DNA of 64,000 nucleotides, taken from contig NZ_SSMD01000004.1 in NCBI RefSeq assembly GCF_004799325.1, positions 248,001 to 312,000 on the forward strand, read 5' to 3'. How positions within the stretch are numbered: position 1 is the stretch's first letter; every line of letters begins with the position of its first letter. The position numbers and the translations under genes were made by a program. Of the stretch, positions 327 to 14,131 are shown in pieces. This DNA is from Thalassobius vesicularis (GTDB lineage Bacteria; Pseudomonadota; Alphaproteobacteria; Rhodobacterales; Rhodobacteraceae). The notes under the pieces are model-generated. The model saw only the letters and a list, made by a program, of their open reading frames with translations. It made no database searches and was not told where the DNA came from.

Positions 327-1823
327 ATGACCTTGCTGACGAAAGACGAATACACGGCCATCGCCGCCGGGCTGGACCTGCCGACCGGGGCGTTCATCGA
401 CGGGATGTCCCGGCCTGCGGCCTCGGGGAAAACCTTTGCCAGCGTGAACCCGGCGACGGGCGCGCATCTGGCCGACATTGCGGCCTGCGATGCAACGGAC
501 GTGGATTTCGCCGTGCAAAAGGCGCGTGAGGCGTTCGACGATGGTCGCTGGTCGCGCCTGCATCCGGCGGAGCGTAAGGACGTGCTGATCCGGCTGGCCA
601 AGTTGATGACCCGCAATGCGCGTGAACTCGCGGTGATGGAGAGCATCGACAGCGGCAAAACGATCTATGACTGCGAGACGGTGGATATCCCCGAAACCAT
701 CCACGTCCTGAAATGGCATGCCGAGCTTATCGACAAGATCTACGATCAGGTCTCGCCTGCCTCCGACGACCATATCGCGATGGTGGTGCGCGAACCCGTG
801 GGTGTGGTGGGGCTGGTGCTGCCGTGGAACTTCCCCTTGCTGATGCTGGCGTGGAAGATCGGGCCGGCGCTGGCGGCGGGCTGCTCGGTCGTGGTGAAAC
901 CTGCGGCTGAGACGACCCTGACCACCCTGCGCATGGCCGAGTTGGCCATCGAGGCGGGCCTGCCGCGTGGTGTGTTCAACGTGGTCCCCGGTGGTGGTGC
1001 CGAAGTGGGCGAACCGCTGGGCCGTCACATGGATGTGGACGCGGTCTCCTTCACCGGCTCGACCGTGACGGGCAAGCGGTTCCTGTCCTACTCCGCCGAA
1101 TCCAACGCCAAGGAAGTCGTGCTGGAGATGGGCGGCAAGAACCCCGCCATCGTGATGGACGATGCCGAAAATCTGGACCGCGTGGCGCAGCATGTCGTCA
1201 ACGGGGCGTTCTGGAATATGGGCGAGAACTGCTCGGCCTCGTCCCGGCTGATCGTGCATAAATCGGTCAAGGCCGAGTTGCTGACCCGGATCGCGCACCA
1301 CGCCAAACAGTGGAACGTGGGCGACCCGCTGGACCCGGAAACCCGGATGGGCGCGCTGGTATCCAAGGCGCATTTCGCAAAGGTTTGCAGCTATCTGGAG
1401 CAGGCCGAGAACATCGTTCTGGGCGGCAAGGCAGCGGACGGGTTCGTCGAGGCGACGGTGGTCGAAGTGTCGGGCAATGACGTGGCGCTGGCGCGCGAGG
1501 AAATCTTTGGCCCGGTGCTGAGCGTGATCGAGGTCGCCAGTTTCGACGAGGCGATCGCGGTAGCCAATGATACCGAATATGGGCTGTGCGCCTCGATCTT
1601 CACGGCAAACGTCAAACGGGCGATCCGCGGCGCGCGGGCGTTGCGGGCAGGCACCGTGACCGTCAACAGCTTTGGCGAGGGCGACATCACCACACCGTTC
1701 GGCGGCTGGAAGCAGTCCGGCTTTGGCGGGCGCGACAATGGCATTCATGCGCATGACCAGTACACCCAGCTGAAAACCATCTGGATCGACCTGGCTGACG
1801 ACACGGACGAGGCCGTGGATTGA
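327..1823 (+). CDS. NAD(P)-dependent aldehyde dehydrogenase (PuuC-like)
   Basis: A full-length, 498-residue aldehyde dehydrogenase that oxidises an aldehyde to the acid with NAD(P)+. The [12 protein letters not shown] cofactor segment lies near residues 166-177, the general-base glutamate is E267 in LEMGGKNP, and the catalytic cysteine is C302 in MGENCSASS. The EEIFGPVLSV motif is near residue 390. It starts 3 nt after the DapA-like gene, and its stop codon overlaps the TTG start of the following FAD oxidase, so the three are almost certainly one transcript. The overall type resembles gamma-glutamyl-gamma-aminobutyraldehyde or betaine-aldehyde dehydrogenases. With a PuuB-like oxidase downstream and a glutamine-synthetase-like ligase nearby, a gamma-glutamyl-aminoaldehyde is a reasonable but unproven substrate. 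Confidence 0.9.
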   Translation: MTLLTKDEYTAIAAGLDLPTGAFIDGMSRPAASGKTFASVNPATGAHLADIAACDATDVDFAVQKAREAFDDGRWSRLHPAERKDVLIRLAKLMTRNARELAVMESIDSGKTIYDCETVDIPETIHVLKWHAELIDKIYDQVSPASDDHIAMVVREPVGVVGLVLPWNFPLLMLAWKIGPALAAGCSVVVKPAAETTLTTLRMAELAIEAGLPRGVFNVVPGGGAEVGEPLGRHMDVDAVSFTGSTVTGKRFLSYSAESNAKEVVLEMGGKNPAIVMDDAENLDRVAQHVVNGAFWNMGENCSASSRLIVHKSVKAELLTRIAHHAKQWNVGDPLDPETRMGALVSKAHFAKVCSYLEQAENIVLGGKAADGFVEATVVEVSGNDVALAREEIFGPVLSVIEVASFDEAIAVANDTEYGLCASIFTANVKRAIRGARALRAGTVTVNSFGEGDITTPFGGWKQSGFGGRDNGIHAHDQYTQLKTIWIDLADDTDEAVD

Positions 1824-3160
1824 GCCTCTATCGCGCCACGCATCTGCCTCTGCACCGGGGCCCAGCGGGGTGGAGCGCGATCCTGCCTGCCCGTCCCGCT
1901 GGGCCGGCGTTGGAGGCGGACCGGACCGCCGACTTCACCATCATAGGCGGCGGCTTCGCCGGGCTGGCGGCGGCGCGGCGGCTGACGCAACTGGCCCCCG
2001 GCGCCAAAATCGTGGTGCTGGAGGCGGGCGGCATTGCCGAAGGCGCCTCGGGGCGCAATTCGGGCTTCATGATCGACCTGCCGCACGAGCTGACCAGCGA
2101 GGATTACGCGGGCACGGGCGACGACCGCGCGGTGATTGCGTTAAACCGCCATGCACAGGTCTTCGCGGCCGAGGCGGTCGAGGACTACGGGATCGACCGG
2201 AACTTCTTTGACCGGGCGGGCAAGGTGAACGGGGCGGCCAGTGAAGGGGCCCATTCCCACAACCTCAGCTATGCGCAGCATTTGCAGACGCTGGGTGAGG
2301 CGTCGGAAATGCTGGACGCGCAGGCCATGCAACAGATGACGGGCAGCCCGCACTACCTGTCGGGCCTGTACACGCCGGGGACGGTGATGCTGCAGCCCGC
2401 CGGGTTCGTGCGTGGTATGGCGGATGGGTTGCGCCGTTCGGGCGTGGCGATCTACGAGAACAGCCCAGTCAGCCAGTTCACGCAGAAGGGTGACGGCTGG
2501 GTCGTGCAGACCCCGCGCGCAACGGTGGCGACCGGCAAGGTGATCCTGACGGTGAACGGGCATCTGGAGAGCTTCGGCGTGCAGCGGGGGCGGCTGATGC
2601 AACTGTTCCTGTTCGCCACGATGACGCCGGAACTGCCCGCAGCGGCGCTGGATGCACTTGGGGGGCAAAGCCGTTGGGGCATCACCCCGTCCGACCCGAT
2701 GGGGACCACGATGCGCCGGATAGACTCGGGGCAGGGGGGCAACCGGATCGTGACGCGGACATGCGCGGTGCTGCGCTCGGGGATGCAGGCGACGGCGCAG
2801 GATCTGGCCCGTGCCGCGCGGGTCATGCAGACGAAATTCGACAGCCGGTTCCCCCAATTGGCGGGGCTGAAAATGGAGCACGCCTGGGCCGGACACCTGT
2901 GCCTGAGCCTGAACGGCGTGGCGGTGATGCGAGAGCTGGAGCAGGGCGTCTTCGCCGGGTGCGTTCAGAACGGTCTGGGCACCGCGCGGGGCACGCTGAC
3001 GGGGATCGGTGCGGCTGAGCTGGCCTGCGGCGTGACCTCGGACATCACGCGGCATTTCGGGACCGAGGAGGCGCCGAAACGACTGCCGCCCCGGCCTGTG
3101 CGTGATCTGGGGGCGAACACCGTGCTGCGGTGGAAAGAGTGGAAAGCCCGCGCCGAATAA
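1820..3160 (+). CDS. FAD-dependent amine/amino-acid oxidoreductase, PuuB-like (DAO fold)
   Basis: A 446-residue DAO-superfamily flavoprotein expected to oxidise an amine or imino/amino acid to an imine, which hydrolyses to an aldehyde. The dinucleotide-binding GGGFAGLAAAR motif is near residues 41-51, followed by the GASGRNSGFM segment typical of gamma-glutamylputrescine oxidase (PuuB)-type proteins. Near the C-terminus are HAWAGHLCLS and a GLGTARGTLTG glycine-rich FAD segment. No ATG lies near the N-terminus. I use the TTG at 1820, which overlaps the ALDH stop (TTGA) and suggests translational coupling; an upstream GAGG sits about 8 nt before it. Its product aldehyde would feed the preceding dehydrogenase. 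The true substrate is unknown. Confidence 0.85.
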   Translation: MSLYRATHLPLHRGPAGWSAILPARPAGPALEADRTADFTIIGGGFAGLAAARRLTQLAPGAKIVVLEAGGIAEGASGRNSGFMIDLPHELTSEDYAGTGDDRAVIALNRHAQVFAAEAVEDYGIDRNFFDRAGKVNGAASEGAHSHNLSYAQHLQTLGEASEMLDAQAMQQMTGSPHYLSGLYTPGTVMLQPAGFVRGMADGLRRSGVAIYENSPVSQFTQKGDGWVVQTPRATVATGKVILTVNGHLESFGVQRGRLMQLFLFATMTPELPAAALDALGGQSRWGITPSDPMGTTMRRIDSGQGGNRIVTRTCAVLRSGMQATAQDLARAARVMQTKFDSRFPQLAGLKMEHAWAGHLCLSLNGVAVMRELEQGVFAGCVQNGLGTARGTLTGIGAAELACGVTSDITRHFGTEEAPKRLPPRPVRDLGANTVLRWKEWKARAE

Positions 3161-3179: not shown

Positions 3180-3941
3180 TTATGCGTCGGCGCTTATGCG
3201 TCCGACTGAAATCGCGGTGTGGCGCAGGACGTCCAGCACCCGGTCCAGCGTTGTACTGTCATCGAACCGGTTGACCGACGCCGTGACGCCCAGAACGAAG
3301 GGTGTGTCGTCCAGGGCGCCGACCGGCACGGCCACACCGGCCGCGCCCGTTTCGAATTCGTTGCGGGCGAGGCAATAACCCTGATCGCGCGCGGTTTGGA
3401 TGGCGGCGCGCAATGCGTCCGGGTCCATCTGCGAGGCTTCGGTGTGGGGGCGGTTGTTCGCCTGCTCCAGCGCCTGTTGCACGGTTTCGGGCGCGCTGCG
3501 TGCCAGCAGCATCCGCCCGACCGCCGTATGCAGCAGTGGCAGGGTGCTGCCCACCGACAGGCCCAATGTCACCCGGGCCGAGGCAGGCGCGGCGCGGTCC
3601 ACATACACGGCCTGCATGCGGTCACGGGTGGCAAGGGCGACCTCCAGATCCAGCGTTTCGGCGGCGTGGCGCAGCAGGGGCTGAACTTTCCGTCCTGCCT
3701 CGATCTGATGCAGGTAGCCGCCGGCCAGTGACAGCACGCGCGGGGCCAGGCGGTAGCCTTTGCCGTGCCGTTCCAGATAGCCGCAATGTTCAAGCGTCAG
3801 GCATAACCGCCGGGTGGTGGCGCGGTCGAAACCGCTGAGCTCGCCCAGCTCGGGCATCGTCAGAGTGCCGCCTCTTTGTTCAAAACAGGCCAGGGCATCC
3901 AGCCCCTTGGCCAAGGTCGCCGCGATGTCGCGATTGATCAT
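3180..3941 (-). CDS. IclR-family transcriptional regulator
   Basis: A 253-residue IclR-type regulator with an N-terminal winged helix-turn-helix (about residues 5-65, with LTMPELGELSGFDRATTRRL) and a C-terminal effector-binding domain containing LGLSVGSTLPLLHTAVGRMLLA and a conserved ETGAAGVAVPV stretch. A longer open frame extends to 3983, but the ATG at 3941 is preceded by a good AGGTG ribosome-binding site and begins MINRDIAATLAKG, as in relatives. It is convergent with the FAD oxidase (19 nt apart) and divergent from the Rieske operon. A perfect inverted repeat at 3989-4003 in the shared promoter is the obvious candidate operator. It probably controls the neighbouring catabolic genes in response to a pathway acid or aromatic ligand. 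Confidence 0.92.
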   Translation of the reverse strand: MINRDIAATLAKGLDALACFEQRGGTLTMPELGELSGFDRATTRRLCLTLEHCGYLERHGKGYRLAPRVLSLAGGYLHQIEAGRKVQPLLRHAAETLDLEVALATRDRMQAVYVDRAAPASARVTLGLSVGSTLPLLHTAVGRMLLARSAPETVQQALEQANNRPHTEASQMDPDALRAAIQTARDQGYCLARNEFETGAAGVAVPVGALDDTPFVLGVTASVNRFDDSTTLDRVLDVLRHTAISVGRISADA

Positions 3942-3988
3942 TTGACACCTGCCTGACGCTCTGTCACTGTTCGATAAATACATATTAT

Positions 3989-4028: not shown

Positions 4029-4430
4029 ATGCAAGCCACGCAAATCGACGGGGAGACGTGGGTGCGGATCGCCCAAAGCGCCGATCTGGACATCCCACGC
4101 CCGGTGATGCCGATCACCCTGCAAGGGCGGCGGCTGGTGCTGTTCCGCGATGACGACGGCCAGCTTGGCCTGATCGGGCGACATTGCCCGCATCGGGGCG
4201 CTGATCTGTGCTATGGTCGACTGGAGGATAACGGCCTGCGCTGTCCGTTCCACGGCTGGCATTTCGACCGCACCGGCCAATGCGTGGAACAACCGGCAGA
4301 GCCCGAAGGCTCGGTCATGTACCAGCAGATCAAGGTGCCGATGGTGCCGGTGATCGAGCGGGACGGGGAAATTCTGGCCCTGCTGGGCAGCGAACTGGAA
4401 CAGTCCGCGGGAAAGGAAACGGGGAAATGA
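4029..4430 (+). CDS. Stand-alone Rieske [2Fe-2S] protein of the phthalate-dioxygenase type
   Basis: A 133-residue protein consisting essentially of one Rieske domain. The cluster ligands are complete: C53-P-H55 in HCPHRGADL and C72-P-F-H75 in RCPFHGWHFD, 16 residues apart. The sequence around the ligands resembles the N-terminal Rieske domain of phthalate 4,5-dioxygenase-type oxygenase large subunits more than a soluble ferredoxin. The start at 4029 has a strong GGGGAGGG site 8 nt upstream; the ATG at 3987 lies inside the inverted repeat and has no ribosome-binding site. The stop codon overlaps the next start (ATGA). The next gene encodes the matching oxygenase subunit with the cluster ligands missing, so this protein probably carries the electron-transfer centre for it. 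Confidence 0.88.
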   Translation: MQATQIDGETWVRIAQSADLDIPRPVMPITLQGRRLVLFRDDDGQLGLIGRHCPHRGADLCYGRLEDNGLRCPFHGWHFDRTGQCVEQPAEPEGSVMYQQIKVPMVPVIERDGEILALLGSELEQSAGKETGK

Positions 4431-5650
4431 TCAGCGAAGAGTTGAACAAGCGGATCACACGGGTCGGGCCGGGCACTCCGGCGGGGGCGGTATTGCGGCG
4501 CTATTGGCAGCCCGCCGCCCTGATCGAAGAGTTGGAGCATGGCGCGCGTGTCCCCGTGAACCTGATGGGCGAGCGTCTGGCCCTGATCCGCGACGATGCG
4601 GGGCAGTTGCTGCTGGCGACCCGCGTGGCAGATGCCGATGAGGCGCCGACGCATTATCCGCCCTCGGACCAGATCCAGATCGACGCCGACGGCCCGACCT
4701 ATCCGGTGGTGCAGCGTGCTGGCGCGGTGTTCGCATATCTGGGCGGCGGGACGCCCCCGGCTTTTCCGGATTTCGACTGTTTCCGCGCGCCTGACACCCA
4801 TGTCTTTGCGTTCAAAGGGCTGTGGGAATGCAACTGGCTACAGGCGCTGGAGATCGGGATCGACCCGGCCCATGCCTCTTTCCTGCATCGGTTCCTCGAG
4901 GATGAGGATCCCGATCAAAGCTATGGCAAACAGTTCCGCGACAAGGCGGGCAGCACCAACATCCCGATGACCAAGCTGCTGCGCGATTACCCGCGCCCGG
5001 ACATTCTGGTCGATGAGACTGATTACGGCCTGAAAATCACCGCCCTGCGCCATATGGAGGACGGCCGGACACATGTCCGCGTCACCAACCAGATTTTCCC
5101 GGATGCGATCTGCATTCCGATGTCGCGCGAGATGACAATCACCCAATGGCACGTGCCGGTCGACGACCGAACCTGCTACTGGTTCACGATCTTCACCAGC
5201 TTCGACAAGCCCGTGAACAAGGAATTGATGCGCGCCCAGCGTCTGAAAGAGCACAGCCTGCCGGATTACGCCCCGCTAAAGAACCGCGCCAACGACTACC
5301 ACTATGACCCGTCCGAGCAAGCCTCGCTGACCTATACGGGCATGGGGCTGGACATCAACGTACACGACCAGTGGGCCGTCGAAGGGATGGGCGCGATCCA
5401 GGACCGCACGCAGGAACATCTGGGTCGGTCGGACGTGGCGATCATCCGCTACCGCCGCCTGCTGCGCCGCGCGATGGACGCGCTTGAACAGGGCGCGGAC
5501 CAGACCCTGCTGATGCAAGAGGACGAGACCGCGAACATGCGCGGCCCGCTGTCAAACGACGCGATCGCTCAAAGCGACGACTGGCGTAACGCAAGCCATC
5601 AGGCCGATATGCAGCGCCGCGCTGCGTGCCCCTGGGATGCCTCGGTATGA
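4427..5650 (+). CDS. Rieske-type oxygenase large subunit with degenerate Rieske domain (mononuclear-iron catalytic subunit)
   Basis: A 407-residue homologue of phthalate/vanillate-type Rieske oxygenase alpha subunits. The start is typical (RITRVGPGTPAG...LRRYW, residues 10-27). The catalytic mononuclear-iron motif is intact as D146-x2-H149-x4-H154 in GIDPAHASFLH, and the C-terminal DQWAVEGMGAIQDRTQEHLG segment (about 314-333) is also family-typical. The region where the Rieske C-x-H and C-x2-H pairs should be (about residues 45-105) contains no cysteine or histidine pair; it runs from LALIRDDAGQLLLATR to YPVVQRAGAVFAYLGG. The cluster is therefore absent from this chain, and the overlapping upstream gene supplies a complete one. 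The likely activity is hydroxylation or oxidative dealkylation; substrate unknown. Confidence 0.85.
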   Translation: MISEELNKRITRVGPGTPAGAVLRRYWQPAALIEELEHGARVPVNLMGERLALIRDDAGQLLLATRVADADEAPTHYPPSDQIQIDADGPTYPVVQRAGAVFAYLGGGTPPAFPDFDCFRAPDTHVFAFKGLWECNWLQALEIGIDPAHASFLHRFLEDEDPDQSYGKQFRDKAGSTNIPMTKLLRDYPRPDILVDETDYGLKITALRHMEDGRTHVRVTNQIFPDAICIPMSREMTITQWHVPVDDRTCYWFTIFTSFDKPVNKELMRAQRLKEHSLPDYAPLKNRANDYHYDPSEQASLTYTGMGLDINVHDQWAVEGMGAIQDRTQEHLGRSDVAIIRYRRLLRRAMDALEQGADQTLLMQEDETANMRGPLSNDAIAQSDDWRNASHQADMQRRAACPWDASV

Positions 5651-5657
5651 GCCGCCC

Positions 5658-7121
5658 ATGAGCAAACAGACGCTGGAGCAGATTGCAGCCGGAAAGCTGG
5701 CCCAACGCGGGCTGCTGACCGATGAACAGGTGACGCGCGCCGCCCATCTGGTGTCCGAAGTCACCGCGCTGGGGCTCGAGACGATCCGCGTCGTTTTCCC
5801 CGATCAGCACGGCCTGTTGCGCGGCAAGAACATCGCCGCGCGCACCTTGGCCTCGGTCTTTGCGTCAGGGCTGTCGGTGCCTTCGACCGTGCTGCTGAAA
5901 GACACCGCGAACCGGACCGTCTTTGACATCTGGGCCGGGGATGTGACGCTGGACGGCCGACCTTTGTCCGGGGCGGGGGATGTGGTGCTGGTGCCCGATC
6001 CCGACGCGCTGACCCGGCTGCCGTGGTCGCCGCATTCCGCGATCCTGATGTGCGATCTGGCCTATGCCTCGGGCGGGCCGGTGTCCGTCGCGCCGCGTGG
6101 TATCCTGCGCCGCGCCGTTGATCGACTGGCCGCCGCGGGTCTGAACGCCGTCATGGGGCTGGAGGTCGAGTTCCAGGTCTTTCAGATCGAAGAAGACGGG
6201 CTGGCGCATACCGACGCCACTATGCCCCCCGCCGCGATCCGCACCCGGAACCTGACGCAAGGCTGGTCCTACCTGTCTGAGACCCGCTACGGCGAGGTCG
6301 AAGGGCTGCTGGACACCCTGCGCCGCCATGCCGAGGCGATGGGGCTTTCCCCCCGCTCGGTCGAGATCGAGATGGGGCCCAGCCAGTTCGAGTTCACCTT
6401 TGACGCCAGCGATCCGCTGACGCAGGCCGACCGTTTCGTGCTGTTCCGCACCATGGTGAAAGAGGTCTGCCGCGCGCAGGGACTGCACGCCAGTTTCATG
6501 GCGAAACCGCGCGTGGCCAACTCGGCCGCCAACGGCTGGCATATCCACCAATCGCTGGTGTCGCGCGAGACCGGCCAGAACGTGTTCACCCCCGATGCCG
6601 ATGGTGCGTTGACCGAAACCGCCAGCCATTGGGTGGCCGGGCTGCTGGACCACGCCGCCGCGTGCTGCCTGATGACCAACCCGACGGTCAACAGCTACAA
6701 ACGGTTCACCGAGTTCCAGCTGGCCCCCAACCGGGTGCAATGGGCCACGGATAACCGGGGCGCGATGCTGCGGGCGCTGCTTTACGCGGGCGATCCGGCA
6801 TCGCGGGTCGAGAACCGGGTCGCGGACACCACCGCCAACCCGTATTTCGCGCTGGCCTCGCAGATCGTGGCCGGGCTGCACGGGCTGACGCGCAAGGCCA
6901 AGGCTCCGGCGCCGACGGACACGCCCTATGCCAAGGACAACGTGATGCTGCCGCCCAGCCTGATCGCCGCGATCGAGGCGTTCGAGGGCAGTCCCCTGTT
7001 CGCGGACACGTTCGGCGCGGATTTCCCCCGGTACCTGGCGCATCTGAAGCGCGCAGAATGGCAGCGATACCTGATGACGGTCTCGGAATGGGAGCAGACC
7101 GAATATTTCAATCTATACTAG
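5658..7121 (+). CDS. Glutamine synthetase-family ligase (gamma-glutamyl-amine synthetase type)
   Basis: A 487-residue protein of the glutamine synthetase superfamily, in the group that attaches glutamate to amines rather than ammonia (PuuA, gamma-glutamylmethylamide synthetase and relatives). It shows GLEVEFQVFQIEEDG (metal/glutamate side, near residue 168), VEIEMGPSQFEFTF, the ATP-site stretch FMAKPRVANSAANGWHIHQSL near residues 280-300, NSYKRFTEFQLAPNRVQWA and VENRVADTTANPYFALA. I use the ATG at 5658 (MSKQTLEQ), 7 nt after the oxygenase stop; an ATG at 5637 overlapping that gene is possible. Lying between an oxygenase and an unknown gene, and near an amine oxidase and ALDH, it suggests gamma-glutamylation of an amine substrate. 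This is inferred from context. Confidence 0.85.
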   Translation: MSKQTLEQIAAGKLAQRGLLTDEQVTRAAHLVSEVTALGLETIRVVFPDQHGLLRGKNIAARTLASVFASGLSVPSTVLLKDTANRTVFDIWAGDVTLDGRPLSGAGDVVLVPDPDALTRLPWSPHSAILMCDLAYASGGPVSVAPRGILRRAVDRLAAAGLNAVMGLEVEFQVFQIEEDGLAHTDATMPPAAIRTRNLTQGWSYLSETRYGEVEGLLDTLRRHAEAMGLSPRSVEIEMGPSQFEFTFDASDPLTQADRFVLFRTMVKEVCRAQGLHASFMAKPRVANSAANGWHIHQSLVSRETGQNVFTPDADGALTETASHWVAGLLDHAAACCLMTNPTVNSYKRFTEFQLAPNRVQWATDNRGAMLRALLYAGDPASRVENRVADTTANPYFALASQIVAGLHGLTRKAKAPAPTDTPYAKDNVMLPPSLIAAIEAFEGSPLFADTFGADFPRYLAHLKRAEWQRYLMTVSEWEQTEYFNLY

Positions 7122-7122
7122 G

Positions 7123-7704
7123 ATGACGGGCGCGGTTCCCACATGCGATGGCTGGTTGTTCGAAGATATCCTCGACGGCTATTTCCCCCTGCGCGAAAGC
7201 CTGCGCCAGTGCCTGATCCGGCAGCGGGCGGCGACGGGGCTGTTCGTGCTGACCTACGCGCCGATCCTGCATTTGCCCGACCGGCCGGGCGATGCGCCGG
7301 TGCCGCTGCGGCTGGAGGCCGAGGTTTCGGGCCTTGTGCGGCGGCTGATGATGGTCGTGCGGTTGGATGAAACCGGGCAAGCTGAGTTGCGCGGTGTCGG
7401 GGCATGGCGTTGGCATCACGGTGACAGCGCAGCCGCGCTGACGCCGGATACGCGTCTGGCCGAGCCTGCCTTTGTGCGCGGCATCGCCGTGGCGCAGGAT
7501 GTGGACGGCTGCCTGTGGCGGCTGTCGGGGCCGGACGGGTTTGCTCAGAGCTGGGGGTTCGATGCGTCCAACGGGATTGTCAGCCTGTCAGAGGCCGTGG
7601 TTTCTGCGGGCGACAGCTCCCCTCGCGCCGATCTGGTGGTACATGCGCCGGACGCTGCGACGCCCGCCAAGGCGGCACAGATGAAGCGTGACTGGCAGAT
7701 CTGA
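7123..7704 (+). CDS. Hypothetical protein, last gene of the Rieske/ligase operon
   Basis: A 193-residue protein I do not recognise. Its ATG follows the ligase stop by one base, so it is co-transcribed and probably translationally coupled. No signal peptide or membrane segment is evident. The N-terminal half has MTGAVPTCDGWLFEDILDGYFPLRESLRQCLIRQR-type helical character (shown in part), then a hydrophobic RRLMMVVRLDE stretch and a GAWRWHHGDS segment, followed by an LWRLSGPDGFAQSWGFD region. Two cysteines occur before residue 35 but no metal motif is clear. It is convergent with the TRAP permease, 6 nt from its stop. It may be an accessory or substrate-handling factor for the oxygenase, but that is context only. 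Confidence 0.7.
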   Translation: MTGAVPTCDGWLFEDILDGYFPLRESLRQCLIRQRAATGLFVLTYAPILHLPDRPGDAPVPLRLEAEVSGLVRRLMMVVRLDETGQAELRGVGAWRWHHGDSAAALTPDTRLAEPAFVRGIAVAQDVDGCLWRLSGPDGFAQSWGFDASNGIVSLSEAVVSAGDSSPRADLVVHAPDAATPAKAAQMKRDWQI

Positions 7705-7710
7705 GCGGGT

Positions 7711-9504
7711 CTACAGAAACGCTGGCCCGAACAGCAACCCCGCCCCAAGGATCAGCAGACCCGCGCGCTGCGCCCTTGGTCTGCGGCTGATCAGGGCAAA
7801 GGACAGCGCAGCCAGCGCCACGCCCAGCACCACGAAAGCCCCCATCGCACCAACCGGGTCCGAGGGCAGGCGGATCACAGCGGGCCACGTCACCATGCCC
7901 AGCGGGATCAGGTACAGCCCGACCCCCAGCGCCATCGAGGTGACGGCTACCTTGATCCAGTTCTCTTGCACCATCCCCGAGGCGATGAACACCGCGCCGC
8001 AAACGGGGGGGGTGATCGTGGATAGCAGGGCGAACCAGAACACGAACAGGTGCGCCTGCAACGGCTCCAACCCCAGTTTCATCAGTGCGGGGCCGGCGAC
8101 AGAAACGCAGATCACGTAGGCGGCGGTCGTCGGCACCTCCATCCCCAGGATCAGGCAGGCCAGCGCCGTCAGCAGCAGCGAGCCCCAAAGCGTGCCGCCC
8201 GAGCCTTGCAGGATGACCGAGGTGATTTTGACCCCCAGCCCCGTGGACCCCAACACCCCGATGATGATCGACGCGCAAAAGATGATCGCCGCGATCATCG
8301 CCACCTGCCGAGAGGCGGTCAGAAGCGCCTCGATCAGCCGTTGCGATGTACGCGTCATGTCAAAGGTCAGTTTGCCGTCCAGCAACAGCAGAATGGCTCC
8401 GGTCAGAATGGCCAGACAAGCGGCGTATTGCGGCGTGTACCCGGCGGCGAACATGCCCAGCATCAGCACCGTGAAGGGCAGCAGAAAGAACAGCGAGGTC
8501 ACGATCACGTCGCGCGGGGCGGGGCGGTCGGCGGCGTCCAGCCCCTTCAGATCATAGCGGGTGGCATAGGCGTCGATGCCGACCCAAACCGCCCAGAAAT
8601 ACAGGATCGCTGGCAGTAGGGCGGCACCCATGATTTGGGTGTAGGGGGTGCTGGTCAGCTCGACCATTACAAAGGCGCCGGCGCCCATCAGTGGCGGCAT
8701 GATCTGGCCGCCGGAACTGGCCACTGCCTCGACCCCGGCGGCAAGGCGTTTGGGATATCCCAGGCGAGTCATAGCGGGCAGGGTGATCGCGCCGGTCGAG
8801 GCGACATTCGCGCTGGCCGAGCCCGAGATCGAGCCGAACAAAGCTGAAGACAGGACCGAGACCTTGGCCGCCCCGCCGCTCAGCCGCCCGGCGGCGGCAG
8901 CAGCGATGTTCATGAAACCTTGTCCGGCCTCGCCCGCGTTCAGGACCGCGCCGAAGATCACGAAGATCGACACGACGCCGACGGAGACGGCGGTCAGGCT
9001 GCCCCAGATGCCGCCCTCGGCAATGGTCATCGTGCCCAGGAACGAGCGCAGCGGCAGCCCGGAATGGCCGAATTCTCCGGGGATGTGGTGGCCGAAAAAC
9101 GCGTAGAGAAGCGCCGCGCTGGCGACCATCGGCAGGGGCCAGCCGATCGCGCGGCGGGCGGCTTCGATCACCACGGCCAGAAGGGCGAAACCGACGCCGA
9201 TCTGGAAGCGGCTTTCCAGAAATCCGTATTGATCGCCCAGCATATCGGCGTTCAGCGCGACCCAAAGGGCCGCCGCGATACCAATGACGCTCAGCACAAC
9301 GCCCGAGGTCAGGCGCCAGCGCCCCGTCACCCCGAACACGAAGACCCACGGCAGGATCAGCGCCAGATGCAGCGGGCGGCTGACCAGGTTGGGCACCAGT
9401 CCCGAAAAGATCAGGCCGATGTGAAACGCGACCAGCGCCACGGCCAGCGTGATCCACATCAGGCGCAGCCAGCGATTGCGGGGAAGATCGGAGTTTTCGG
9501 CCAT
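7711..9504 (-). CDS. TRAP transporter permease, fused small (4TM) and large (12TM) subunits
   Basis: A 597-residue integral membrane protein. The N-terminal ~170 residues carry the four-helix DctQ-like part and the rest the DctM-like 12-helix transport part, with SGSASANVASTGAITLPAM and a GGQIMPPLMGAGAFVM segment near the middle, which are characteristic of the large TRAP subunit. The 4TM/12TM fusion is the form normally paired with TAXI-type binding proteins, and such a protein is encoded just upstream (66 nt). It should drive secondary uptake of an organic acid or amino acid across the inner membrane using an ion gradient. It converges on the catabolic island, so import of that pathway's substrate is plausible but unproven. 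Confidence 0.92.
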   Translation of the reverse strand: MAENSDLPRNRWLRLMWITLAVALVAFHIGLIFSGLVPNLVSRPLHLALILPWVFVFGVTGRWRLTSGVVLSVIGIAAALWVALNADMLGDQYGFLESRFQIGVGFALLAVVIEAARRAIGWPLPMVASAALLYAFFGHHIPGEFGHSGLPLRSFLGTMTIAEGGIWGSLTAVSVGVVSIFVIFGAVLNAGEAGQGFMNIAAAAAGRLSGGAAKVSVLSSALFGSISGSASANVASTGAITLPAMTRLGYPKRLAAGVEAVASSGGQIMPPLMGAGAFVMVELTSTPYTQIMGAALLPAILYFWAVWVGIDAYATRYDLKGLDAADRPAPRDVIVTSLFFLLPFTVLMLGMFAAGYTPQYAACLAILTGAILLLLDGKLTFDMTRTSQRLIEALLTASRQVAMIAAIIFCASIIIGVLGSTGLGVKITSVILQGSGGTLWGSLLLTALACLILGMEVPTTAAYVICVSVAGPALMKLGLEPLQAHLFVFWFALLSTITPPVCGAVFIASGMVQENWIKVAVTSMALGVGLYLIPLGMVTWPAVIRLPSDPVGAMGAFVVLGVALAALSFALISRRPRAQRAGLLILGAGLLFGPAFL

Positions 9505-9570
9505 GACCTTGATATTCCAAACGGAAGGCCGGGCGCGCTGGCCCGGCCTGTGTTGTCACGCGGGGGCGGT

Positions 9571-10530
9571 TTACTGCTGCTCGGCGGTCAGGGCGATGCC
9601 TGCCTCGGCATAGTAGCGTGCCGCGCCGGGGTGGATTTTGCCGTTGATGTTGGACAGCATCGACGCATCGACGCCGCCCCACCATGCCGCGCCCTCGGCC
9701 ATCGTGGCCTTGCTGTCCCAGAAGGTCTTGGTCAGCTGATAGGCGGTTTCGTCATCCATCTTGGTGGTGGCATAGGCGACCACTGGCAGCGAGGTCGTGA
9801 CGATGTCCGTGTCCTGCCCGGCATAGGTGCCAGCGGGAATGACCAGACGGGTGCGTTTGGTTTGGGCAACCTGCTCGTCATTCAGCGACAGAACGACGAC
9901 CCCGGTCGAGGCGGCGGCTTCGACCACGTTGGGCGCGGGCCAAGATCCGGCGGTGACGAAGCCGTCGATCTGGCCGTTCTTCAGCGCGGCGGTGGCGTTG
10001 GACAGCTCGGCGTCGGCGATGGTCACCTTGCCCTCCAGCCCGAAGAGGCCCAGGTATTTTTCGCCTTCTTTGGCGCCAAAGCTGCCCTTGCCCAACAGGA
10101 TCGTCTTACCTTCGAGGCTTGCGAAATCAGTTGCACCGCTTGCTGCAGACATCACGAAATGCATGGTCAGCGAGGGGATGGGGAACAGCGCGCGAATCTC
10201 GTCAAAGGCCGGATCACCCTTGCCGTCGAACATCGCTTTGCCAGCCTGCGCCAGCCCGACCAGGCTGGGCGGGGTGGTGAAGACGTAGTCGCCGCCACGT
10301 GCGCGCACCTCCATCACGTTCTGGACCGAGCCCTGGCCCTCTTCGACGGTGACGATAATGCCGCCGTCCGAGCCGGATTTCATCGCCTCGGCGATCTGCA
10401 CACCCATCTGGTAGTACGAGGTGCCGGCCTTGGCCGATTTGTACGTGATACGCGTTTCGGCCGCTGCCGGCAGCGCCAGAATCGCGCTGGCCAGAACCGC
10501 ACCGGTTGCCCACTTCATTGCATTGAACAT
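9571..10530 (-). CDS. TAXI-family TRAP transporter periplasmic substrate-binding protein
   Basis: A 319-residue secreted binding protein. The N-terminus (MFNAMKWATGAVLASAILALP ending AAAE, quoted in part) is a clear Sec signal peptide with cleavage near residue 25. The mature protein opens with ITYKSAKAGTSYYQMGVQIAE, the typical first strand-helix of TAXI proteins. A longer frame starts at 10584, but ATG 10530 has an excellent GGGAGG site and places the signal peptide correctly. The gene is followed after 66 nt by the fused 4TM/12TM permease, forming a complete TAXI TRAP system. Known TAXI ligands are mostly glutamate-like or small carboxylates; nothing here fixes the ligand. Confidence 0.93.
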   Translation of the reverse strand: MFNAMKWATGAVLASAILALPAAAETRITYKSAKAGTSYYQMGVQIAEAMKSGSDGGIIVTVEEGQGSVQNVMEVRARGGDYVFTTPPSLVGLAQAGKAMFDGKGDPAFDEIRALFPIPSLTMHFVMSAASGATDFASLEGKTILLGKGSFGAKEGEKYLGLFGLEGKVTIADAELSNATAALKNGQIDGFVTAGSWPAPNVVEAAASTGVVVLSLNDEQVAQTKRTRLVIPAGTYAGQDTDIVTTSLPVVAYATTKMDDETAYQLTKTFWDSKATMAEGAAWWGGVDASMLSNINGKIHPGAARYYAEAGIALTAEQQ

Positions 10531-10617
10531 CTGAAAACCTCCCTTTGATTTCGTTAGCAAGCAACATAATCGGGGGGCGGTCAATCGGCGAAGTTCGCTG
10601 CACTGCCGCGACGGGGG

Positions 10618-13600
10618 TTAGCGGGTCAGCTCCTCGAGGTGTGTCAGAACGCGGGCGCGGCAGTCACTTGCGGCGGTCTCGCGCACCGGGCCAAAGCCGC
10701 GGATGTCCATCGGGGCGGCCAGAATTTTGGCCATTGCCTTGGGATCGGCCGTTGCGGGCAGGGCAGATAGCTGGGTCAGAACGTCCTCGTACCACGCGAT
10801 CAGCGCCAGTTCCTGTTTCCGATCATGGGTCCAGCGGAACGGGTCCAGCGCGGTGCCACGGATGCGGCGCACCCGAGACAGCAGGGACAGGACGGGCGAC
10901 AGCCATGCGCCGTAGCGGCGTTTCAGGGGGCGTCCGCGCGCATCTTTGCCCCGCGCCAGAAGTGGCGGAGCGAGGTGGTAGTTGATGCTGAAGCCCGGTT
11001 CGAACTCGGCCTCAAGCATGGCTTGGAAATCGGGGTGCATGTGCTGGCGGGACACCTCGTATTCGTCCTTGATCGCCATCAGTTTGAACAGCGATTTGGC
11101 GGCTGTGGCCAAAAGGTCGTCGGCTTCGTTTTGGGGCAGGGTCGCGCGGAACTGCGCCAGCGTCGCGCGATAGCGGGCGGCATAGGCGGCGTCCTGATAC
11201 TCGGTCAGCCACGCGGCGTTCCGGTCGATCAGTTGGGCGGCGGTCAGCGCCGGGGTGGGGGCGGGTTCTACCAGGACAGAGTCCGGCGCGGCGGCCAGAA
11301 CCCGGCCCAGCTCGAACGCGCGGGTGTTCCGCTCCATCGCGACGCCGTTCAGGGTGATCGCCTGTTTCAGGGCGTCCTCGCTGACCGGGACAAGGCCGCG
11401 CTGCCAGGCAAAACCCAGCATGATGACGTTGGCGAAGACGCTGTCGCCGAGGAAGGTCTCGGCCAGCTGGTTGGCGTTCAGCGTCCAGACCGCATCATCG
11501 CCAACCGCCTTGCCGATTGCGGCCACGCGCTGGTCTACCTTCAGTTGGGCATCCCGGTGCAGCACCAGATCACCCGTCGGCATCTCGGCGGTGTTCAGAA
11601 CGACCTGCGTGCCCGTGCGGTAATGGATCGACGCCTTGGGGGCGGACGACACCACGACGTCACAGCCGATTACCGCGTCTGCAGCGCCTTTCTCGATCCG
11701 GACCTGGTTGATCGCTTCGGGCGTCTTGCCCAGCCGGATATAGCTGAGGACGGTGCCGAATTTCTGCGCGAAACCGGTGAAATCCAGCACGCTGGAGCCC
11801 TTGCCCTCCAGATGCGCGGCCATGGTGATCAGCGCGCCGACGGTCACAACCCCGGTGCCGCCGACCCCCGTCACCAGCAGGTCGAACGGGTCGTCCAGCG
11901 CGGGCAAGACCGGCTTGGGCAGATCGCGCAGCAACGCCGGCAGGTCGATATCCGCGCCGGTTTTCTTGCGGCGCACGGCCCCTTCGACGGTGACGAAGCT
12001 GGGGCAGAACCCATTCAGGCACGAGAAATCCTTGTTACAGGTGGACAGGTTCACCTTACGCTTGCGGCCGAACTCGGTCTCCAGCGGTTCGATGCTGAGG
12101 CAGTTGCTTTCGACCGAGCAATCGCCGCAGCCTTCGCAGACGGCGGGGTTGATGAAGGCGAACCGCTTGGGGTCGTCCATCTTGCCCCGCTTGCGGCGGC
12201 GGCGCTTTTCGGTGGCGCAGGTCTGTTCGTAGATCAGAACGGTCACGCCGGGGATGTCCCGCAATTCGCGTTGCACAGCATCCAGATCGGCGCGGTCGTG
12301 GAAGGTGGTCCCGCCGGGGAAATCGGCGCGGTCGAACTTGGCGATGTCGTCCGAGACCAGCGCAATCCGCTGCACGCCCTCGGCCCGGCAGGTTTGCGCG
12401 ATGCCTGACACGCTGACCGGCCCGTCCACCGGCTGTCCGCCGGTCATGGCGACGGCATCGTTGAACAGGATTTTGTAGGTGATGTTGGTCTTGGCCGCGA
12501 CGGCCTGCCGGATCGCCAGCGAGCCGGAGTGATACCAAGTGCCCTCGCCCAGGTTCTGGAAGATATGCTTGCCGCCGTTGAATTTCGACGCCACCGCATG
12601 GGGCACCCCTTCGCCGCCCATTTGCGCAAAGCCAAAGGTGTTGCGGTTCATCCAGCTGGCCATGACGTGGCAGCCGATGCCAGATGCGGCGGTGCTGCCC
12701 TCAGACAGTTTGGTCGAGCTGTTATGTGGGCAGCCCGAGCAGAAATAGGGCGTCCGCGTCGCACCGGGGATGCTGAGGACGGGCGGTTGCTGGCCGCACA
12801 GCGCGCGCGCCTTTTCGATCAGGCGCTCATCGGGAAAGAACTCGTTCAGTCGTTCGGCCAGTACAGGGACGATGGCCAGGGGGCTCAGCTCTCCGGTCCA
12901 GGGCAGCAGGGGGTCGCCGGCGGCGCGGTGTTTGCCGACCATCTTTTCGGGTTTGTCGCCCGGCCAGTCATAGAAATATTCCTTGAACTGGCTTTCGATG
13001 ATGCCCCGCTTTTCCTCGATCACCAGCACCTCTTTTTTGCCGCGCACAAAGGCCAGCGCGTCGCGGCGGGCCAGCGGCCAGACCATGCCGACCTTGTAGA
13101 TGTCGATGCCCAGGCGGCGGCAGGCGGGTTCGTCCAGACCCAGCAGGCGCATCGCCTCCATCAGGTCCAGATGGCCCTTGCCGGTGGTGACGATGCCGAA
13201 CTTGGCCGCGTCGATGTCATAGATCCGATGGTCGATCGGGTTGGCTTCGACAAAGGCTTCGACGGCGCGCAGCTTGTGCTCGATCCGGGTTTCGATCTCG
13301 GCGCTTGGCAGGTCCGAGCGGCGGACGTGCAGGCCGCCGGGGGGCAGATCGATCTGCGGCAGAACAAAGCTGCGGTCGGGCTGCAATTCGACCGACTGGC
13401 CGCTTTCGACGGTTTCCGAGATCGCCTTGAACCCGACCCAAGTGCCCGAATAGCGGCTAAGCGCCAGCCCGTATTCGCCAAAGGCCAGGTATTCGCCCAC
13501 GCTGGCGGGGTTCAGCGTCGGGATGAACCACGTCATGAAGGCCACGTCCGACTGGTGCGGCATCGACGAGGACACGCAGCCGTGGTCGTCGCCCGCGACC

Positions 13601-14040
13601 ACCAGCACGCCGCCCTTCGGAGCCGAGCCATAGGCGTTGCCGTGGCGCAGCGCGTCGCCGGAGCGGTCCACGCCCGGGCCCTTGCCGTACCACATGGAGA
13701 ACACGCCCTCGACCTCGCAGGCCGGGTCCAGCGTGGCTTGTTGCGCACCCAGAACGGCAGTGGCGCCCAGGTCTTCGTTCACGGCGGGCAGAAAGGTGAT
13801 GTTGTTGCGGGCGGTTTCCTGTTTCGCGCGCCACATCTCCAGATCCAGCGCCCCCAGCGGCGAGCCGCGATAGCCCGAGACGAACCCGGCCGTGTTCAGC
13901 CCGTTCCGGCGATCGCGCCGCGCCTGATCCAGCATGATCCGCACCAGCGCCTGCGTGCCGGTCAGGAAGACGCGCCCCTCGGGCAGGGTGTAACGGTCTG
14001 ACAGGGCATAGGGCTGGGGCTGGTGGACTGTGTCTTTCAT
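10618..14040 (-). CDS. Indolepyruvate:ferredoxin oxidoreductase, fused alpha/beta/gamma type
   Basis: A 1140-residue 2-oxoacid:ferredoxin oxidoreductase that decarboxylates aryl or branched-chain pyruvates to acyl-CoA using TPP and Fe-S clusters. The N-terminal pyrimidine-binding part includes YRGSPLGALDLEM; a PYFCSGCPHNSSTKL motif and a TPP-binding region with GIGCHVMASWM follow. A four-cysteine ferredoxin-like block (CEGCGDCSVESNC) lies near residue 635, with more cysteines after it. The C-terminal third is the POR-gamma domain, with GVGGTGVVTVGALI. ATG 14040 has a GGAAGTGAG site; the longer frame to 14067 lacks one. This long fused form is common in aerobic proteobacteria. The divergent Lrp/AsnC gene suggests control by amino acids. 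Confidence 0.93.
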   Translation of the reverse strand: MKDTVHQPQPYALSDRYTLPEGRVFLTGTQALVRIMLDQARRDRRNGLNTAGFVSGYRGSPLGALDLEMWRAKQETARNNITFLPAVNEDLGATAVLGAQQATLDPACEVEGVFSMWYGKGPGVDRSGDALRHGNAYGSAPKGGVLVVAGDDHGCVSSSMPHQSDVAFMTWFIPTLNPASVGEYLAFGEYGLALSRYSGTWVGFKAISETVESGQSVELQPDRSFVLPQIDLPPGGLHVRRSDLPSAEIETRIEHKLRAVEAFVEANPIDHRIYDIDAAKFGIVTTGKGHLDLMEAMRLLGLDEPACRRLGIDIYKVGMVWPLARRDALAFVRGKKEVLVIEEKRGIIESQFKEYFYDWPGDKPEKMVGKHRAAGDPLLPWTGELSPLAIVPVLAERLNEFFPDERLIEKARALCGQQPPVLSIPGATRTPYFCSGCPHNSSTKLSEGSTAASGIGCHVMASWMNRNTFGFAQMGGEGVPHAVASKFNGGKHIFQNLGEGTWYHSGSLAIRQAVAAKTNITYKILFNDAVAMTGGQPVDGPVSVSGIAQTCRAEGVQRIALVSDDIAKFDRADFPGGTTFHDRADLDAVQRELRDIPGVTVLIYEQTCATEKRRRRKRGKMDDPKRFAFINPAVCEGCGDCSVESNCLSIEPLETEFGRKRKVNLSTCNKDFSCLNGFCPSFVTVEGAVRRKKTGADIDLPALLRDLPKPVLPALDDPFDLLVTGVGGTGVVTVGALITMAAHLEGKGSSVLDFTGFAQKFGTVLSYIRLGKTPEAINQVRIEKGAADAVIGCDVVVSSAPKASIHYRTGTQVVLNTAEMPTGDLVLHRDAQLKVDQRVAAIGKAVGDDAVWTLNANQLAETFLGDSVFANVIMLGFAWQRGLVPVSEDALKQAITLNGVAMERNTRAFELGRVLAAAPDSVLVEPAPTPALTAAQLIDRNAAWLTEYQDAAYAARYRATLAQFRATLPQNEADDLLATAAKSLFKLMAIKDEYEVSRQHMHPDFQAMLEAEFEPGFSINYHLAPPLLARGKDARGRPLKRRYGAWLSPVLSLLSRVRRIRGTALDPFRWTHDRKQELALIAWYEDVLTQLSALPATADPKAMAKILAAPMDIRGFGPVRETAASDCRARVLTHLEELTR

Positions 14041-14131
14041 GGGCTCACTTCCGGAAATTTCTCTCATTTTGCCCGGTAATGCGTGAAAAGAGTGACCAGA
14101 TTTGCTCGCCTCTTACCCTTTGTTCGGTTAA

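Follow-up and report, generated by a model that had tools for sequence, protein, structure and literature searches.

The stretch of DNA analysed here, referred to as the window, comprises 64,000 nucleotides of Thalassobius vesicularis (assembly GCF_004799325.1, contig NZ_SSMD01000004.1, positions 248,001 to 312,000 of the forward strand). Close to its start lies a cassette encoding a small Rieske protein (RieskeS), an oxygenase chain (OxyL), a glutamine-synthetase-like (GS-like) ligase and a protein termed D193 (Table 1). Loci of this kind, with the Rieske cluster and the oxygenase on separate chains, are called split, and those with a single-chain oxygenase intact. The divergent IclR-type gene is a possible regulator of the RieskeS-OxyL cassette. 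Beyond it, upstream and on the cassette strand, an aldehyde dehydrogenase and a DAO-type FAD oxidoreductase are encoded (window positions 327-3160), a pairing that was not seen at the other split loci searched. On the 3' side the cassette is followed by TAXI-type TRAP transporter genes (7711-10536); relatives of these, 69 and 76% identical, adjoin the split cassette of another locus (L035). A minus-strand frame of 1149 aa at 10618-14067 encodes what we take to be an indolepyruvate ferredoxin oxidoreductase.

Table 1. Features of the split oxygenase cassette and its regulator candidate (window positions).
Feature	Position	Strand	Basis
RieskeS: stand-alone Rieske [2Fe-2S] protein, 133 aa	4029..4430	+	Pfam and PDB matches; ligands C53, H55, C72, H75 in 27/27 split loci
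OxyL: LigXa_C/phthalate-type oxygenase subunit, 407 aa, cluster-binding lobe deleted	4427..5650	+	Pfam, structure alignment; D146, H149, H154, D314 kept
OxyL residues 62-88: remnant in place of the cluster-binding lobe, 27 aa	4610..4690	+	Alignment with 83 intact orthologues (56 aa each)
GS-like ligase, long-standing neighbour of the oxygenase family	5661..7121	+	Pfam; longest frame begins at 5637
D193: 193-aa protein from an uncharacterised family that accompanies the split oxygenase	7123..7704	+	Co-occurrence across loci
Divergent IclR-type regulator, PcaR/PcaU/PobR-like	3180..3983	-	Match below the cut-off of the PcaR/PcaU/PobR model

A sequence-only reading of this locus had described a complete Rieske protein upstream of an oxygenase subunit without Rieske ligands of its own, and the analysis bore out this description. 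RieskeS consists of 133 residues with the motifs C53-x-H55 and C72-x2-H75 and is recognised by Pfam as a single Rieske domain (E=1.6e-21) without a reductase fusion; its gene overlaps that of OxyL by 4 nt (4427-4430). All four [2Fe-2S] ligands are kept in each of the 27 RieskeS proteins of the split-locus alignment. RieskeS is a small stand-alone Rieske protein like BphF or the NDO ferredoxin. Unlike these, it is far closer to the Rieske domain of an oxygenase (7fhr, E=6e-27) than to a ferredoxin (2qpz, 2.1e-5) among PDB sequences, and both the PDB matches and the Rieske-domain tree place its nearest kin among oxygenase Rieske domains, not ferredoxins. Three proteins of the window genome match the Rieske model; two are encoded elsewhere, and RieskeS is the only one within the cassette.

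OxyL has 407 residues, carries D146, H149 and H154 as had been claimed, and gave no Pfam Rieske match at E<=0.001. It matches the LigXa_C model (E=2.8e-29) and, more weakly, two further oxygenase C-terminal models. Residues 3-65 and 89-368 align to 9ina, a solved phthalate-type oxygenase, and the cluster-binding segment between them does not. Similarly, a profile comparison aligned RieskeS 10-126 with OxyL 26-112, with a gap at the cluster lobe. According to the accessible text on isophthalate dioxygenase (IPDO), iron is bound by H177, H182 and D337, and D174 bridges to the cluster of the neighbouring subunit over 12.5 A, compared with 45 A within the chain (PMC12445078). By analogy with these residues, drawn from the motif and from phthalate-type alignments rather than from an alignment with IPDO itself, the apparent counterparts in OxyL are H149, H154 and, as third iron ligand, D314, with D146 for the bridging Asp. 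All four are invariant in 27/27 OxyL proteins, so that by this analogy the 2-His-1-Asp iron site and the bridging Asp are present. Between positions 62 and 88 the split members have 25-27 residues, all 83 intact proteins 56. Identity in this region is 42.3% among split members and 85.2% among intact ones, and in the catalytic domain 82.1% and 81.1%, respectively. Across 138 collected family members the C-x-H...C-x2-H motif is absent from the oxygenase chain in 27/27 split proteins and present in 111/111 others, where agreement at the named loci arises by construction, as their split and intact labels were set by the same motif. These comparisons support the view that OxyL lost about 30 residues bearing the [2Fe-2S] ligands and kept the base of the Rieske domain together with the whole iron-binding catalytic domain.

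The adjacent pair, which the sequence-only reading had proposed to look for in other Rhodobacteraceae, was found in 10 of 394 genomes of the family, the window's own included. An oxygenase was detected at E<=1e-60 in 46 of these genomes; in ten of them the match spans the whole of OxyL (split), and in the other 36 it begins only at about residue 78-90 (intact type). As there was one match per genome at this threshold, none of the 46 carries both a split and an intact oxygenase. A scan of named genomes returned at least 579 relatives, of which the best 80, comprising 20 split and 60 intact loci, were used. Split hosts among these 80 include Roseobacter sp. GAI101, three Pararhodobacter species, Alterinioella nitratireducens, Pseudooceanicola marinus, Alloyangia pacifica and Thalassovita gelatinovora. 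A sample of 385 genomes of the class gave matches at E<=1e-40 in 34, and the alignment reached back to residue 1 only for the window's own match. Thirteen plasmid records contain a match. Two of them (L238, L239) are split, each with an oxygenase lacking the motif, a Rieske motif upstream and D193 downstream; in the Palleronia plasmid record the Rieske gene is absent from the listed gene table. Four of the remaining 11 plasmid matches were viewed, and their annotation shows no upstream Rieske gene. A split cassette was also observed on a 6.5-kb contig of a metagenome-assembled genome named Granulosicoccaceae (L084), outside the Rhodobacteraceae, which could reflect transfer or a mis-binned contig. 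Removal of identical proteins, and exclusion of one short frame (L189), left a working set of 138 sequences, of which 27 (the window's among them) are split, 83 are intact and 28 come from other families of the class.

Rows chosen from this set were used for a catalytic-domain tree (68 rows, Rieske columns excluded, five rows without a recognisable cut-point motif being left out) and a Rieske-domain tree (73 rows, 90 columns). Both were built by a quick method without bootstrap, and the root is approximate in both, since the outgroup rows do not fall on one side of a branch. In the catalytic-domain tree the 27 split oxygenases form one side of a branch with an SH-aLRT value of 99; they sit in a 33-row set (SH-aLRT 97) together with five intact members, two of them from Mameliella, and one row from another family. 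Identity of the intact single-chain orthologues to OxyL is 54-69%. In the Rieske-domain tree all 27 RieskeS proteins fall into a 31-row set with intact Rieske domains (SH-aLRT 95), and support for RieskeS as a single clade is only 55. Over a core of 53 residues the window's RieskeS shares 94% identity with one intact protein (L040). The sequence relationships thus support both a single origin of the split clade and derivation of RieskeS from the Rieske domain of an intact orthologue. The earlier proposal that the Rieske domain was duplicated, one copy becoming clusterless and the other a separate protein, is borne out by the position of RieskeS among intact Rieske domains and by the clusterless oxygenases forming one clade. 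Intact homologues without an upstream partner, which that proposal had named as a finding against it, do exist: no upstream Rieske motif was seen at 60/60 named intact loci (among the best 80 of at least 579 relatives), and none of these 60 combined an intact oxygenase with an upstream RieskeS. They do not contradict the reading, as the intact form represents the ancestral state.

The two chains have decayed in complementary fashion. Positions conserved in at least 95% of the 83 intact proteins were counted as kept if present in at least 90% of the 27 split ones. RieskeS keeps 36/38 such positions in the cluster lobe, but 8/21 and 4/16 in its flanks. OxyL keeps 3/15 in the cluster lobe, 20/30 and 6/11 in the base, 129/140 in the catalytic domain and 9/10 in the tail. 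These complementary sets are as predicted by duplication followed by complementary loss. In each of the pairs with finite dS (eight pairs compared, several dS values being close to saturation) dN was below dS for RieskeS, OxyL and D193; between the window and Pararhodobacter aggregans dN/dS was 0.26, 0.17 and 0.56, respectively.

The third gene linked to the split oxygenase is D193. Every one of the 29 split loci has it, whereas it was found at no intact locus out of 91 examined, 83 of them distinct. In detail, it is present at 9/9 split and 0/31 intact family loci, not counting the window, at 20/20 split and 0/60 intact loci among the best 80 of at least 579 named relatives (three of the 20 repeat earlier loci), and at both split plasmid loci. 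A D193 profile matched 10/394 family genomes, exactly the split ten; as the profile was made from those ten loci, this result speaks for absence elsewhere more than for presence. Of the 36 intact family genomes, 31 were viewed with long flanks, and the other five were covered by this genome-wide search. At a few intact loci little DNA follows the oxygenase (105 and 1410 bases in the shortest cases), so that D193 could escape detection there, and since the split loci share a common origin the co-occurrence counts are not independent events. In searches for relatives, six members were run against Pfam up to E 10 without any match. NCBIfam, searched with 26 members, returned just two matches, each to a single member (best E 0.064), and the PDB two at chance level (best E 0.24), none of them significant; profile comparison likewise showed no similarity to OxyL or RieskeS. 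Eighteen columns are invariant across 26 members, none of them Cys or His. Given the outcome of these searches and the lack of invariant Cys or His, the idea that D193 is a beta subunit, GST, ferredoxin or reductase of a known kind was rejected.

It is conceivable that D193 is not part of the oxygenase and instead represents an additional pathway enzyme or regulator gained at the same time. The failure to find homology fits such a role, as do the fast evolution of the protein, members being 28-45% identical to the window's, and the GS-like gene that separates D193 from OxyL in 19/27 loci. However, D193 was not seen with intact orthologues, though these share the GS-like gene and often the regulator. 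Moreover, in the other 8 of the 27 loci (L037, L039, L080-L083, L085 and L086), and in both plasmids, D193 lies directly 3' of OxyL, and at the eight loci the GS-like gene is found elsewhere in opposite orientation. These eight form two separate groups on the catalytic-domain tree, the parting branch scoring 90. RieskeS, OxyL and D193 stay together where the GS-like gene has moved away, which ties D193 more closely to the oxygenase than to the GS-like gene, and we consider a role outside the oxygenase unlikely.

The GS-like gene itself is present at 38/40 family loci and at 26/29 short loci from the class; its pairing with the oxygenase is old. The alpha chain of aniline and 1-naphthylamine dioxygenases has an intact Rieske domain. 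In these systems (AtdA, NpaA), as far as the accessible text describes them, a glutamine-synthetase-like gene adjoins the Rieske oxygenase as in the present cassette; unlike the cassette, they have a two-component Rieske-type dioxygenase (AtdA3A4) and a reductase gene in the cluster (PMC11335346). The conserved GS-like neighbour and this analogy suggest that the substrate may be of the amine type and possibly gamma-glutamylated.

With respect to electron supply, the sequence-only reading had noted that no reductase gene is adjacent. This is true of the window, where neither a flavodoxin pair nor a ferredoxin/FAD oxidoreductase pair lies near the cassette, but not of all split loci. In one subgroup, comprising four named contigs (L080-L083) and the two split plasmid loci (L238, L239), a flavodoxin and an FAD oxidoreductase, the latter presumably related to adrenodoxin reductase, are encoded divergently upstream of the cassette and may possibly serve as a dedicated electron supply. 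Strong flavodoxin matches (E<1e-30) were obtained in 6/10 split and 7/36 intact genomes (Fisher p 0.02, relatedness ignored), an adrenodoxin-reductase-like oxidoreductase in 2/10 and 7/36. Neither has a match in the window's own genome, and given this absence and their uneven occurrence the two were rejected as a universal donor.

Near the intact relatives on plasmids of Polaromonas, Cupriavidus, Methylobacterium and Nitratireductor (L240-L243) a 2Fe-2S ferredoxin and an FAD oxidoreductase are encoded, the Polaromonas pair being checked with Pfam. We noticed that oxygenase, ferredoxin, oxidoreductase and a GS-like gene form a compact cluster there. The same pair occurs at a few named intact loci (L091, L095, L120), and none was found at most family loci within the flanking DNA examined. 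The pair beside intact relatives suggests that the oxygenase family is probably fed by ferredoxin. The window genome encodes a ferredoxin 45-49% identical to those adjoining intact relatives, and an FAD reductase (contig C4 of the genome, 378329-379516) that we take to be of the putidaredoxin-reductase-like type. As reductases of this type occur in 45/46 genomes, it is only a candidate donor. The window genome has 3 matches to PF00175 and 11 to PF00111, and among those inspected no stand-alone PDR/VanB-type reductase was recognised. A donor of this type was rejected, as the PDR-type tails viewed belong to two large fusion proteins, presumably a P450 fusion and one other. On another contig of the genome (L234, 1517-4675, contig C1) a 1052-aa protein was observed in which 4Fe-4S-like Cys motifs precede a reductase-like tail that bears a plant-type 2Fe-2S motif; it resembles a reductive dehalogenase fusion.

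Taken as a whole, the locus likely encodes a working Rieske oxygenase, the terminal oxygenase of which would be divided among RieskeS, OxyL and D193. The sequences support an origin from a single-chain ancestor of the phthalate/LigXa type, the Rieske domain of which was duplicated into an upstream gene, the present RieskeS. OxyL then lost its cluster lobe, and RieskeS kept the lobe and let its base diverge. OxyL may still assemble into a ring, probably a trimer. The cluster lobe of RieskeS is predicted to dock where the Rieske cluster of the neighbouring subunit was formerly located, near the bridging Asp146, and to pass electrons to the mononuclear iron of OxyL. The bridging Asp is kept although the OxyL chain holds no cluster, which argues that a cluster still docks there. 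D193, having no conserved Cys, could serve as an adaptor or scaffold holding RieskeS and OxyL, and electrons would be supplied in trans by a shared ferredoxin or flavodoxin chain.

RieskeS might instead be a soluble shuttling ferredoxin that contacts OxyL only transiently, as BphF-type ferredoxins do, and thus not a stable split subunit. Its small size, its separate chain, its plain Rieske domain in Pfam and its diverged base flanks would suit a shuttle, but its descent from the oxygenase's own Rieske domain and the almost complete retention of the cluster lobe would not. Furthermore, at the 20 named split loci its gene and that of OxyL either overlap by 4 nt or are no more than 66 nt apart, and OxyL lacks a cluster motif with which it could itself accept electrons. 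We therefore regard a mere shuttle as rather improbable. That OxyL is no longer an oxygenase, the pair being in decay or regulatory, is very hard to sustain: one of the two metal centres is indeed lost, but the iron-site residues and the bridging Asp persist in 27/27 OxyL proteins, the catalytic domain is as conserved in split as in intact members, and dN lies well below dS. Concealment of the ligands of OxyL by a frameshift or by sequencing or assembly error was ruled out for practical purposes, as the identical architecture recurs in 27 distinct split loci and in two plasmid records titled complete sequence.

The divided oxygenase can be compared with known systems. Phthalate and isophthalate dioxygenase and LigXa-type oxygenases share with OxyL the catalytic domain, the bridging Asp, the His/His/Asp iron site and the N-terminal segment. 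Single-chain oxygenases of the phthalate/LigXa type carry the cluster lobe in the chain, whereas OxyL is without it and the copy is encoded upstream. In the literature searched, and as far as its text was accessible, a split Rieske oxygenase is known once: the caffeine N7-demethylase NdmCDE of Pseudomonas putida CBB5, described as the first reported split-off Rieske domain, in which NdmE is postulated to align NdmC with the Rieske-bearing protein (PMC4408171). The accessible description resembles the present system in that the oxygenase (NdmC) has no cluster of its own, the Rieske domain resides on another protein and a third protein takes part (PMC4408171). It differs in that the Rieske domain is fused to the reductase NdmD and the third protein is GST-like (PMC4408171). 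RieskeS, by contrast, is a separate 133-aa protein, and Pfam gave none of six D193 members a match up to E 10. Also unlike NdmCDE, the oxygenase here keeps the base of the Rieske domain, and its origin was traced to intact phthalate/LigXa-type orthologues. The present split probably arose separately from NdmCDE, the two being set apart by description, not by comparison with Ndm sequences. No earlier report of this split was found in the literature searched, most subscription papers lying outside its reach.

A bolder reading, to which we give slightly less than even credence, is that the Rieske domain has been rebuilt over two chains, with the lobe in RieskeS and the base in OxyL, and that D193 represents a new class of obligate assembly subunit. 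Split Rieske oxygenases would then have been invented a second time and independently, here through duplication and complementary loss, and the cluster protein would have been freed to work with different carriers, a ferredoxin in some hosts and a flavodoxin in others. Beyond the sequence-only reading, the analysis brought out D193 as a linked third gene, a single origin of the split, complementary decay of the two copies and a precedent in caffeine demethylase. D193 marks a protein family that has no entry in Pfam, and its role is defined and can be tested. In Rieske oxygenases electrons cross between subunits, and the roles of cluster and iron are hard to part within one chain. Here the two are naturally separated, and a matched control exists in the intact orthologues, which share the gene neighbour, so that with the set of split and intact enzymes cluster docking, coupling and the choice of electron donor can be tested directly. 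Duplication with subsequent complementary loss inside a metalloenzyme also has a clear candidate in the split clade.
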